A DNA stretch of 50,662 bases, taken from NCBI GenBank assembly GCA_009777315.1, contig WRMD01000007.1, positions 1-50,662 of the forward strand. The letters run 5' to 3'. The stretch is from Candidatus Saccharimonadota bacterium. Its GTDB lineage: Bacteria; Patescibacteriota; Saccharimonadia; Saccharimonadales; Saccharimonadaceae. Below the pieces are notes generated by a model, which was given only the letters and a program-made list of their open reading frames with translations, was not told the origin of the DNA and did no database searches. The translations under genes and the position numbers were made by a program. Positions 13,599 through 50,662 of this stretch are shown here, piece by piece (within the stretch, counting starts at the first letter, position 1; each line of letters opens with the position of its first letter).

Positions 13599-14993
13599 GT
13601 GGTTGCGTTTAGCGCGTTTGTAACACTGGTGGCTTGGGTGGCTTCTCTATTCCGACCTATCAGTGCGGCGGTTGGCGGGAGCGTTGGCGTAGGTGTGAGC
13701 CTGCAATATAGCCTCACGATGACTCTGGGCGAGGAGTTTGCCACCGATAACTGCCAGGCCCAACCAAGCGGTGGCGGTGCAGTAGCCATGAATCCGACGC
13801 CGGACGGCCAGATATATTCGTCGTGCCTCAATGTCAATGTCGCGACGGACAATCCGTGGGGGTACACGCTGACCATGCGGAGTGAGACGGCTAATTTAGT
13901 CAGTGGGTCGAATAGTATACTGGCGCATAGCGGGACCATTGCAGCGCCGACGGTGCTCTCGAATGATCGATGGGGATTTTGCATTCCGAATATCTATATG
14001 CAGCGTGCGGGAGCGGGGGTCTTCGGGAACGGTGGTTCTTGTGGTGCGGCTAATAACATCGGCTCGGATACAGCGTATAGTTATGCCGGTTTGCCGACGA
14101 TAAACACCATAATCAAGAGGGTTAATAATACGCCTAGCACAGCGGCAGAGGCGAACACGCCGATCAGGTTTGGTGTCCGGCCGACTGCTGCCACCCCTGT
14201 CGGGACTTATGTTGCGACAGTAACGATAACCGCCAGCTTAAACGCCATGCCATTGCCGACTGCTCAGAACGGTGACATCATGCAGGAGATTGGCAGGACG
14301 CTTTCGTGTCCGACCACCAGGACGTGGATGATAGACGCAAGAGATAACAGAACCTATTGGGTGAGAGAGATACCGGACACGAGAGCGGACGTTGGGGATT
14401 TATGTTGGATGGAGACAAACTTGGCGTATGCAGGAGGAGGGACTAATACCTATGGGGATGTGAGGGCTATCACTAATAGCGAGTCAGCGAGCTCTACCGA
14501 TGCTTTCTTCATGATACCGCCAGGCGCGAACCCGACCAGCAATCCGACTTCGCCCAGCCTCAGCACGACCGGTGGCGGTCAGTTGGGCTATCTATATAAC
14601 TGGTGTGCAGCCATGGGCAATCAGCAGGGGACGGCGGCTTGTACAAACGCAGCAGCGCCCTTGCCCGACGCGAACATATCGATATGTCCGGGAGGCTGGC
14701 GGTTGCCAATCGGGGGGCCCGGAGGAGAATGGACCCTGTTAAATAACGCCATAAATAGTGGGTCGACTTCTAGTACCAGTGGCTTGCTCACTAATTCGCT
14801 GTTCATGTATAGCGGCGTTTGGGACGATTATTTCCAATATCAAGGCGAGGGTGGCGACTACTGGTCGGGGACGCTTGCCGACGCTACGAGTGCTTGGTAT
14901 ATATGGCTATACAGTCATACCTGGGGCGTCAACCCGTCGGCAACTGCCGATACTTCTATTGGGCTGGCGGTACGGTGTGTGGCGGATGATTAG
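13599..14993 (+). CDS. FISUMP-domain surface protein, possibly phase-variable
   Basis: 464 residues if begun at GTG 13599; with a 9-G or 12-G tract it would begin at ATG 13514 and be about 28 residues longer. A hydrophobic signal segment (FSAFVTLVAWVASLFRPISAA) is followed by a threonine/serine-rich region of about 210 residues. The C-terminal FISUMP domain follows: GYLYNWCAAMGN, SICPGGWRLPIGG, GEWTLLNNAI, GDYWSGTLAD and a final GLAVRCVADD. FISUMP proteins are large surface families in Fibrobacter and CPR, of unknown ligand. The + strand is G-rich here while neighbouring genes are C-rich, which suggests later acquisition or movement. GTG 13599 has no Shine-Dalgarno site. Confidence 0.8.
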   Translation: MVAFSAFVTLVAWVASLFRPISAAVGGSVGVGVSLQYSLTMTLGEEFATDNCQAQPSGGGAVAMNPTPDGQIYSSCLNVNVATDNPWGYTLTMRSETANLVSGSNSILAHSGTIAAPTVLSNDRWGFCIPNIYMQRAGAGVFGNGGSCGAANNIGSDTAYSYAGLPTINTIIKRVNNTPSTAAEANTPIRFGVRPTAATPVGTYVATVTITASLNAMPLPTAQNGDIMQEIGRTLSCPTTRTWMIDARDNRTYWVREIPDTRADVGDLCWMETNLAYAGGGTNTYGDVRAITNSESASSTDAFFMIPPGANPTSNPTSPSLSTTGGGQLGYLYNWCAAMGNQQGTAACTNAAAPLPDANISICPGGWRLPIGGPGGEWTLLNNAINSGSTSSTSGLLTNSLFMYSGVWDDYFQYQGEGGDYWSGTLADATSAWYIWLYSHTWGVNPSATADTSIGLAVRCVADD

Positions 14994-24487: not shown

Positions 24488-24984
24488 CTCCTCCCCACCC
24501 CCTACGGGTAGACACAGCGGAGGGGACGACCATGGTTTTTGCTATGGTTTCCATCTGCGCCCGCTTGAACAGACAAACCATCTATACGAGAGCGGGCTGG
24601 GCTGGTGGCCGATAGTAGTGTAGCTGCCCATAACTGTACTACCAGAGACTGTTCTATAGAACCATTGCTAGGGCTGAAATAGCCATTAGTGACAGTGGCG
24701 AAGGAAAGCCGGAACTTTATAAAGCCGACTCTATAACAGAGGCAGGAGACTTTATAAAGTCTCTCCTCCTTCGCCACTGTCTCAAGTGACTATTTCCATC
24801 CGGGAAGCGGCGCTCGCGCTGAGGGATGGGGGATATGGTGGTCGCCATCTATATTGTCTGACATTACGGCACATGGTTCAGCCGCAGTCGCTACAGTAGT
24901 TTATCCCGGCACACATATAGTACAAGCTCCTAAATACTTCGGCTTTACCCTCCGCTGTGTCTACCCGTAGGGGGTGGGGAGGAG
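24488..24984. mobile_element. Inverted-repeat element A (497 bp), no coding capacity
   Basis: It is bounded by perfect 37-bp inverted repeats: 24488-24524 (CTCCTCCCCACCC...) and 24948-24984. A second, inner pair of inverted repeats, GACAGTGGCGAAGGA (24691-24705) and its complement (24767-24781), frames a 61-bp centre. That centre contains an 18-bp perfect palindrome, GAGACTTTATAAAGTCTC (24746-24763). Between outer and inner repeats lie two arms of about 165 bp, unlike each other but both full of small palindromes. The flanks AAATCTA (24481-24487) and AAAGCTA (24985-24991) match in 6 of 7 positions, like a decayed target duplication. No gene inside. Confidence 0.7.
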
Positions 24985-49715: not shown

Positions 49716-49932
49716 TCCTCCCCACCTATATACTACGTCTACCCACGCATACGGGCTAGGAGGGAGCGCAAAGCTTTAAAACCAGCTGCCGGGCATAGGA
49801 TTTCATTCGGACACAGCATCATTTTAATCCGTCGCCACGGACTAAAATGTGCTTCTACCTCGGCTTGCCAGCCTCCGGGACGTTCCTCATGAAACTATGC
49901 CTCGGCGCGCTGGTTTTAAAGCTAGTGCCTTA
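49716..49932. other. Long imperfect palindrome, possible structured RNA
   Basis: No gene. The outer arms AGCTTTAAAACCAGC (49771-49785) and GCTGGTTTTAAAGCT (49908-49922) are perfectly complementary. Inside, GCCGGGCATAG...TTTCAT mirrors ATGAAACTATGCCTCGGC, and a central hairpin pairs CATTTTAATCCGT with ACGGACTAAAATG around CGCC. Together they could fold a branched structure of about 150 nt. CCTCCCCACC at its left edge resembles the start of the element A/B terminal repeat. Confidence 0.5.
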
Positions 49933-49933
49933 T

Positions 49934-50662
49934 TCCCCACCCCCTACGGGTAGACACAGCGGAGGGAGAAGCCGTACCACTTTTGGTTGTTGTTAGTTCC
50001 CGGCAGGACACTCAGAGCGTATGTATACGCGTTACCAGCATTGACTACTGAATTCGGATCAGGAGTCCACCAGTGGACATGAGCTGATGTCCTCAGACCG
50101 ATATCCCTAAGGTCAAAGTAACCTCCCGAGACAGTGGCGAAGGACTTAGTGCTAGACTTTGGACCAGTCGTCGAGGGTTTTGCCGTCTTTGTCCTTGAGG
50201 TTGAGCCAGGTGTTATTGCCGCCGTAACGGAGGAAAGTGCCGAGTTCGTTGGGGGAGGGGAAGGTGAGGTCTGACGTGGTGACGCCGTCTTTGATTTTAT
50301 CGGCGTGCTCCATGCGGAGGAATTTCGCGAGTTTGGTAGAGAAGTTGAGCGTGCCGTCTTGGTTAAGCTGGGGGTCGGGTGTGAGTTTGGCGCCGGCTTT
50401 TAGGATCAATTCTTTGCGGGAGCGCCAGTAGACTTTGCCGAGGCTGCCGCGGTCTTCGAAGGTAAACTCGATATCGGCGAGGTCGGGAGACCATTTGTGT
50501 TGTGGCTTCATGGTTCTATTGTAGCATAGTGGAGGCTTCGCCACTGTCTCAATGGGTATGTTCAGCTCTTTCCTCGGCCTAGACAGGCCGTCCGCTAACG
50601 CTGACTGGTGGGTGTCCTCTCTTCAGTCAGGAACCATTGCTTCCCGCACGATTTTAGAAAGC
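49934..50662. mobile_element. Inverted-repeat element B, incomplete at the window edge, with cargo gene
   Basis: The left outer repeat 49934-49966 is identical over 33 bp to that of element A. The inner repeats GACAGTGGCGAAGGA (50130-50144) and CTTCGCCACTGTCTCAA (50536-50552) are identical to A's and frame a gene (50152-50511) instead of A's 61-bp centre. The left arm is about 163 bp, like A's, with unrelated sequence but again short palindromes (GTCCACCAGTGGAC, GGACAT/ATGTCC). The right outer repeat is expected shortly past the window end. Confidence 0.65.
50152..50511 (-). CDS. Unknown protein carried as cargo of element B
   Basis: 119 residues from ATG 50511, which follows a TGC-extended TACAAT on the minus strand (50518-50523) by 6 bases, so leaderless. 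Begins MKPQHKWSPDLADIEF, continues with RGSLGKVYWRSRKELILKAGAKL and ends FLRYGGNNTWLNLKDKDGKT. Mixed charged and aromatic, no membrane helix, probably a small alpha/beta fold. No family recognised. It exactly fills the space between the inner inverted repeats, with its stop 8 bases from one and its promoter beside the other, as a mobile cassette would. Confidence 0.6.
   Translation of the reverse strand: MKPQHKWSPDLADIEFTFEDRGSLGKVYWRSRKELILKAGAKLTPDPQLNQDGTLNFSTKLAKFLRMEHADKIKDGVTTSDLTFPSPNELGTFLRYGGNNTWLNLKDKDGKTLDDWSKV

Follow-up and report, generated by a model that had tools for sequence, protein, structure and literature searches.

Antigenic variation of a surface protein from silent cassettes is known for pilE/pilS of Neisseria, vlsE/vls of Borrelia and msp2/p44 of Anaplasma. 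The cassette family described here resembles these systems in that one full-length gene is accompanied by many partial copies that lack a start codon and carry the borders of that gene, in that a hypervariable middle is kept open, and in that the product is a surface or secreted protein. It differs from them in the dispersal of its ~140 copies over the chromosome, often head-to-head, in an identity of only ~40% inside the copies, in borders as short as 12–33 bp and in a variable domain of DGR type. Further, the host lineage has genomes of 0.5–1.2 Mb, and transfer from the donors is, unlike in the known systems, something that we infer. The silent vls cassettes of Borrelia have been described (PMC3585125), and antigenic variation in Patescibacteria has been raised as speculation only (PMC11809585). 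A silent-cassette system of the present lineage was not found in the open literature, which is weak evidence as subscription journals lay mostly outside the search. Our reading, to which we give a probability of about 0.7, is that the family is a repertoire of silent cassettes which goes back to a DGR and supplies a single expression locus through recombination.

The window, a stretch of 50,662 nucleotides from a Candidatus Saccharimonadota genome, contains two elements of this family, A and B, which an initial annotation had described as nested inverted repeats around an exchangeable centre. Both sets of repeats are real. In A, the outer inverted repeat is perfect over 37/37 bp (24488–24524 and 24948–24984), and the inner repeats (24691–24705 and 24767–24781) flank a non-coding centre of 61 bp (24706–24766), as annotated. 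The left outer repeat (24488–24524, minus strand) is the 3' border of a silent cassette at 24502–24705 (minus strand), whose translation is SFATVTNGYFSPSNGSIEQSLVVQLWAATLLSATSPARSRIDGLSVQAGADGNHSKNHGRPLRCVYP followed by a stop; the repeat consists of the codons for the last residues, the stop TAG (CTA, 24502–24504) and then G-rich bases. The left inner repeat (24691–24705, minus strand) is the 5' border of the same cassette, TCCTTCGCCACTGTC encoding SFATV when read outward. On the plus strand, the right inner repeat (24767–24781) and the right outer repeat (24948–24984) are the 5' and 3' borders of a second silent cassette (24767–24970), with the translation SFATVSSDYFHPGSGARAEGWGIWWSPSILSDITAHGSAAVATVVYPGTHIVQAPKYFGFTLRCVYP up to its stop. 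As the arms, which read SFATVTNGYF...GRPLRCVYP-stop and SFATVSSDYF...GFTLRCVYP-stop, are in frame and stop-free, the nested architecture amounts to two back-to-back coding cassettes. An RNA element was also considered and set aside, since no Rfam match was found within the window and the arms code; the strong RNA fold of A is largely a consequence of its inverted repeats. The centre of A belongs to a repeat family with CTTTATAAAG palindromes, which recurs between other head-to-head cassettes, and a second family, with CCCCTGTTATAACAGGGG hairpins, is found between or beside cassettes.

Read outward, the arms share one plan: SFATV, ~55 variable residues and SLRCVYP-stop, ~66 codons in all, without a start codon. 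They had been taken for palindrome-rich sequences of constant length; they are in fact open reading frames with lengths that differ by multiples of three. The outer-to-inner repeat distances are 178, 181, 187, 190 ... 220; among the 111 arms that are usable and retain an intact inner repeat, 110 fall in one residue class modulo 3. Within the outer repeat, CTC CGC TGT GTC TAC CCG TAG encodes LRCVYP-stop and is followed by GGGGTGGGGAGG. The outer repeat is the conserved 3' border of a cassette and the inner repeat its conserved 5' border. The G-rich bases 3' of the stop are retained in all copies and might play a role in recombination; G4 DNA has been suggested to act in vls switching (PMC3585125). 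Not a single in-frame stop occurs in the 6,853 core codons of the 124 full cassettes, against 297 expected from shuffling of the individual cores, and the remaining five frames contain 274–465 stops. DNA is conserved at the borders, which are nearly invariant at synonymous positions as well, and the protein pattern is conserved inside. There, the cores are on average 40% identical in pairwise nucleotide comparison (above 60% in just 2 of 7,626 pairs), and the third base of conserved Ser and Gly codons is saturated. Between cassettes, length varies by up to 14 codons, and all codon positions vary. In one diverged duplicate (C2:59732 and C20:7634, given as contig:position of the assembly), 18 codon differences are synonymous and 5 nonsynonymous, an excess from which it follows that silent copies are constrained at the protein level.

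These observations make it unlikely that the cassettes are functionless relics, that is, copies of the end of a C16-type gene (or of its RNA) which were inserted genome-wide and never return. Such relics would be in keeping with the retrocopy-like 5' ends, variably truncated relative to the full-length gene on contig C16, with the failure to find a donor copy of the C16 cassette and with the pile-up of similar fragments in arrays of a second genome, G158. However, they would not be expected to be free of stops in 124 cassettes despite synonymous saturation, to differ by a synonymous excess between duplicates or to keep near-invariant borders, and 55 of the 57 matches in G158 are likewise free of internal stops.

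The assembly from which the window comes (G000; 834,365 bases in 30 contigs, 87% complete) is broken at duplicated cassettes. In it, the 25-bp core of the outer repeat occurs at 141 sites (64 + 77; up to 3 mismatches), and the reversed pattern of the core, used as a control, at none. A strict two-border pattern matched exactly at 98 sites. The stretches around the repeats that were read cover 604,536 of the 834,365 bases and 136 of the 141 border sites. Cassettes number about 140 and are dispersed through the genome; the 124 full ones make up 28.7 kb, about 3.4% of the assembled genome. Copies lie at non-orthologous places. The unit is the single arm, not the self-contained nested element first envisaged: arms occur as head-to-head pairs (40), tandems, convergent neighbours and singles, and the centres of the pairs can be 25-bp junctions, repeat DNA or genes. 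A preference of cassettes for sites upstream or downstream of genes was considered and rejected: they run in the same direction as neighbouring genes in 48 cases and opposite in 46, without bias by crude gene calls. At six further sites (C3:16783, C4:21125, C8:22392, C9:29580, C10:5798 and C22:11328), variant 3' borders read AG(R/H)CVYP-stop; GTCCAGC stands where the inner part normally is, and no cassette can be recognised behind them.

It is scarcely credible that the head-to-head pair, ended by its 37-bp repeats, is a MITE-like non-autonomous transposon, although perfect inverted ends, dispersed copies and as many as 40 pairs are what such an element would produce. The decayed target duplication suggested at A was not seen, and neither there nor in the listed flanks of the 40 pairs did inspection by eye find any target-site duplication. 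Singles, tandems and convergent arrangements would not arise from a unit that is a pair, and the interior is not common to the copies (mean identity 40%). Further, the end repeat is coding sequence plus a stop. The initial annotation was right that this is not a standard transposon and that neither A nor B encodes a transposase: the apparent terminal repeat is made up of the last codons (RCVYP), the stop and the bases just after it.

Copying between loci is clearest in element B. The outer repeat of A has a 95% match at 49934–49974, and the left silent cassette of B lies at 49944–50144 (minus strand), with its outer border at about 49934–49966 and its inner border at 50130–50144. The centre of B is indeed occupied by a gene (50152–50511, minus strand, 119 aa), which lies outside the cassette and has no Pfam match. 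The right cassette (50537–50662, plus strand) is cut by the contig end and runs on into contig C11 (45-bp overlap). When joined, it equals the cassette at C10:22375 and is identical to it over the whole length from TTCGCCACTGTC to TAGGGGGTGGGGA, with unrelated flanks on both sides. Similarly, the cassettes at C1:27577 and C14:11683 are almost identical between CTCCTCCTTCGCC and TAGGGGGTGGGGAG, and their flanks are unrelated. Identical or near-identical cassettes at unrelated loci share the same limits, identity stopping at TTCGCC... and TAGGGGGTGGGGA. Cassettes are copied between silent loci, and the copied tract is bounded by the borders. The earlier idea of a cassette system bounded by repeats is borne out to this extent, but it is the arm between inner and outer repeat that is copied, not the centre that is swapped. 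The number of duplicates is probably underestimated, because assembly breaks are expected at duplicated cassettes. To the left of B, a further repeat-like element (49718–49931) ends in TAAAGCTAGTGCCTTAT, and this end or a close variant also flanks the cassettes at C2:42141, C3:10054 and C27:6395.

Only one full-length gene was recognised. At C16:4404–7124 (minus strand) lies the putative expression locus, which encodes a predicted secreted protein of 906 aa and has both borders around a cassette of its own. Among 138 sites examined, this gene provides the one frame of more than 152 aa, and it has a start codon. No second long frame with both borders was found in the stretches read (136 of 141 border sites), where the remaining long frames whose end is related are those of the DGR1-type paralogues. 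Searched against the whole assembly, the region of the C16 gene upstream of the cassette found itself at 100% and otherwise paralogous FISUMP genes at 40–53%. The N-terminal segment of the protein is hydrophobic, and its C-terminal part is of a diverged FISUMP type (Fib_succ_major-like). It scores 16.3 bits against PF09603, below the curated cut-off of 33.9; since several paralogues pass the cut-off, and the C-terminal part is 45–47% identical to four DGR1-type paralogues, it is considered a diverged homologue of FISUMP. With a mean pLDDT of 31, the structure predicted for the C-terminal 350 residues does not establish a C-type lectin fold, and a search by sequence found no solved relative. 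The window itself holds a full-length FISUMP (PF09603) gene at 13599–14993, which is distantly paralogous to the C16 gene and differs from it in its C-terminal end.

The silent cassettes are linked to the C16 gene beyond their borders. Upstream of the border, a match of at least 7 nt to the C16 gene was seen in 24 of 125 cassettes, against 0.01 expected. The homology upstream of the common TTCGCCACTGTC declines gradually and reaches at most 28 nt, which means that silent cassettes carry variable lengths of C16 sequence at their 5' ends. Further, the C16 cassette and that at C5:6416 have 16 exact nucleotides in common just inside the 3' border, among the longest such runs in the 7,626 pairs.

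In the model that we favour, a cassette would be the hypervariable C-terminal end of a secreted FISUMP-type protein, stored silent. The short identical borders (~12–30 bp upstream and ~33 bp downstream) would provide the landing homology for recombination, through which cassettes would be copied among silent loci and silent cassettes could enter the C16 gene from donor loci and alter the outermost stretch of its product. The secreted protein would then have a C-terminal domain that can be switched and that plausibly serves to attach to a partner cell or host. The pool would derive from a DGR-diversified domain and now consist of stored variants. One concern, and the main weakness of this model, is the missing donor: no silent cassette in the 87%-complete assembly is identical to that of C16 (best match 57%), and this counts against a simple gene-conversion model, which predicts that the donor is retained. 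The donor may sit in missing sequence, or the exchange may be reciprocal. Also against the model, homologous recombination would, at a mean identity of 40%, have little but the borders to act on, and purifying selection on silent copies requires that they pass frequently through the expression that we propose.

Cassettes might instead be exchanged reciprocally by a site-specific reaction at the borders, integron- or invertase-like, and not by homologous recombination. Short and nearly invariant borders around an interior of about 40% identity, and a C16 cassette with no retained donor, speak for this. We nevertheless regard this as very unlikely, as the 5' homology reaches variable lengths into the C16 upstream sequence, unlike at a fixed crossover site, and as the duplicates imply copying. 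The cassettes are like integron gene cassettes in being exchangeable and bounded by short conserved sequence, and unlike them in being gene ends and not whole genes, with a variable 5' extension that is copied along.

The DGR component of our reading comes from comparison with DGRs in the same genome, which has two reverse transcriptases, on C6 and C8. The canonical DGR1 (C6:30249–32669) comprises a template, an accessory gene and variable repeats. Its variable repeats lie in FISUMP genes on C6, with related ones on C17, C10 and C3, and these genes end in RCVFP. The C6 template is rich in Asn codons, and all its substitutions relative to the neighbouring variable repeat are at template adenines. 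The second DGR (C8:16381–18400) has its template at C8:18293–18400 and variable repeats at C8:17919–18026 and C13:6457–6589; 17 of 18 mismatches between template and variable repeat are at A, and its target gene has no Pfam match. In an alignment of the C6 template with the cassettes, hypervariability coincides with the Asn columns of the template (17 vs 36 columns, p=1e-6). Further, 74% of four-fold codons in Asn columns have C or T as their last base, vs 52% in the other columns (p=7e-36), as would be left behind by AAY codons mutated at A and hence by DGR ancestry. The cassette also occupies the position in its gene that the variable repeat has in the paralogous DGR-target genes. The pool thus goes back to domains that a DGR diversified, and ordinary divergence has since added much to it.

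While DGR ancestry is supported, current writing by a DGR is not. That the cassettes belong to an active DGR as its variable repeats or its templates, written directly by a reverse transcriptase, seems extremely unlikely to us. The presence of two DGRs, one of which diversifies paralogous FISUMP genes, and the NNY footprint at hypervariable sites would suit such a mechanism, but both reverse transcriptases serve template/variable pairs of their own outside the cassette family. The C8 enzyme, which lies beside cassettes, was considered as their mover and rejected for this reason. The RCVYP cassettes are matched by neither DGR template, and no template was found that is Asn-rich and carries the RCVYP border. 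Differences between cassettes extend beyond template adenines, leaving only the ancestral NNY bias, and the longest and shortest cassettes are 14 codons apart. Overall, the family is like a DGR in its protein domain, in the position that this domain shares with the variable repeat of DGR1 targets, in hypervariable sites that correspond to template Asn codons and in the NNY footprint. It is unlike a DGR in having no reverse transcriptase or template of its own, in variation that is not adenine-limited and in keeping a store of many copies where a DGR has a single template.

The outer-repeat core is absent from 60 relatives. A profile of the cassette finds related sequence in 41 of 198 genomes of the family, the matches listed being mostly full-length genes or single short frames, possibly templates. 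The exception is G158, with about 57 DGR-type fragments, mostly short frames, 55 of which lack an internal stop; no other such collection was found among the matches listed in a wider profile search of 295 genomes. A dense array of these fragments lies at C7:16860–26754 of G158 (L094), in opposite or alternating orientations. Compared with a template-like copy, they mismatch at 41.5% of A and at 6–10% of C, G and T, and G158 has a reverse transcriptase on another contig. The fragments hold gene sequence that is missing from the template (TRADSGILSEP), which indicates copying from a diversified gene; the length of their 5' ends is variable. In G158, no full-length recipient gene was recognised. 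Both collections have a DGR-variable end of FISUMP type, variably truncated 5' ends and opposite orientations; the G158 fragments are clustered, whereas the G000 cassettes are dispersed, and the strong adenine bias of the G158 mismatches suggests that they are younger. Judged from these sequences, G158 seems to represent a younger and G000 an older stage of one process.

We tentatively propose diversification in two stages, a scheme to which we would give somewhat less than even odds: a DGR would invent lectin-like variants, silent cassettes would store them, and border recombination would replay them through one gene. If the repertoire is what we think it is, bacteria with tiny genomes, probably dependent on a partner, devote ~3.4% of the assembly to a library for one secreted protein, and DGR hypermutation and stored silent cassettes, strategies normally seen apart, are joined in one system. 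The order of events becomes testable, given the seemingly younger stage in G158 and the older one in G000.

Beyond the family, viral contigs gave no match to the outer repeat, and a collection of 84,980 species contained its core in one record, the 3.2-kb contig WRAN01000031.1 (L071), titled as a Defluviitaleaceae MAG (isolate Lab288P1bin39). No other contig of that MAG carries the repeat, so that the match suggests misbinning or transfer. The flanks of its cassettes do not occur in G000. The contig carries a head-to-head pair at 2426–2870 and two more cassettes, and its left part is lower in GC, at about 41–45%.
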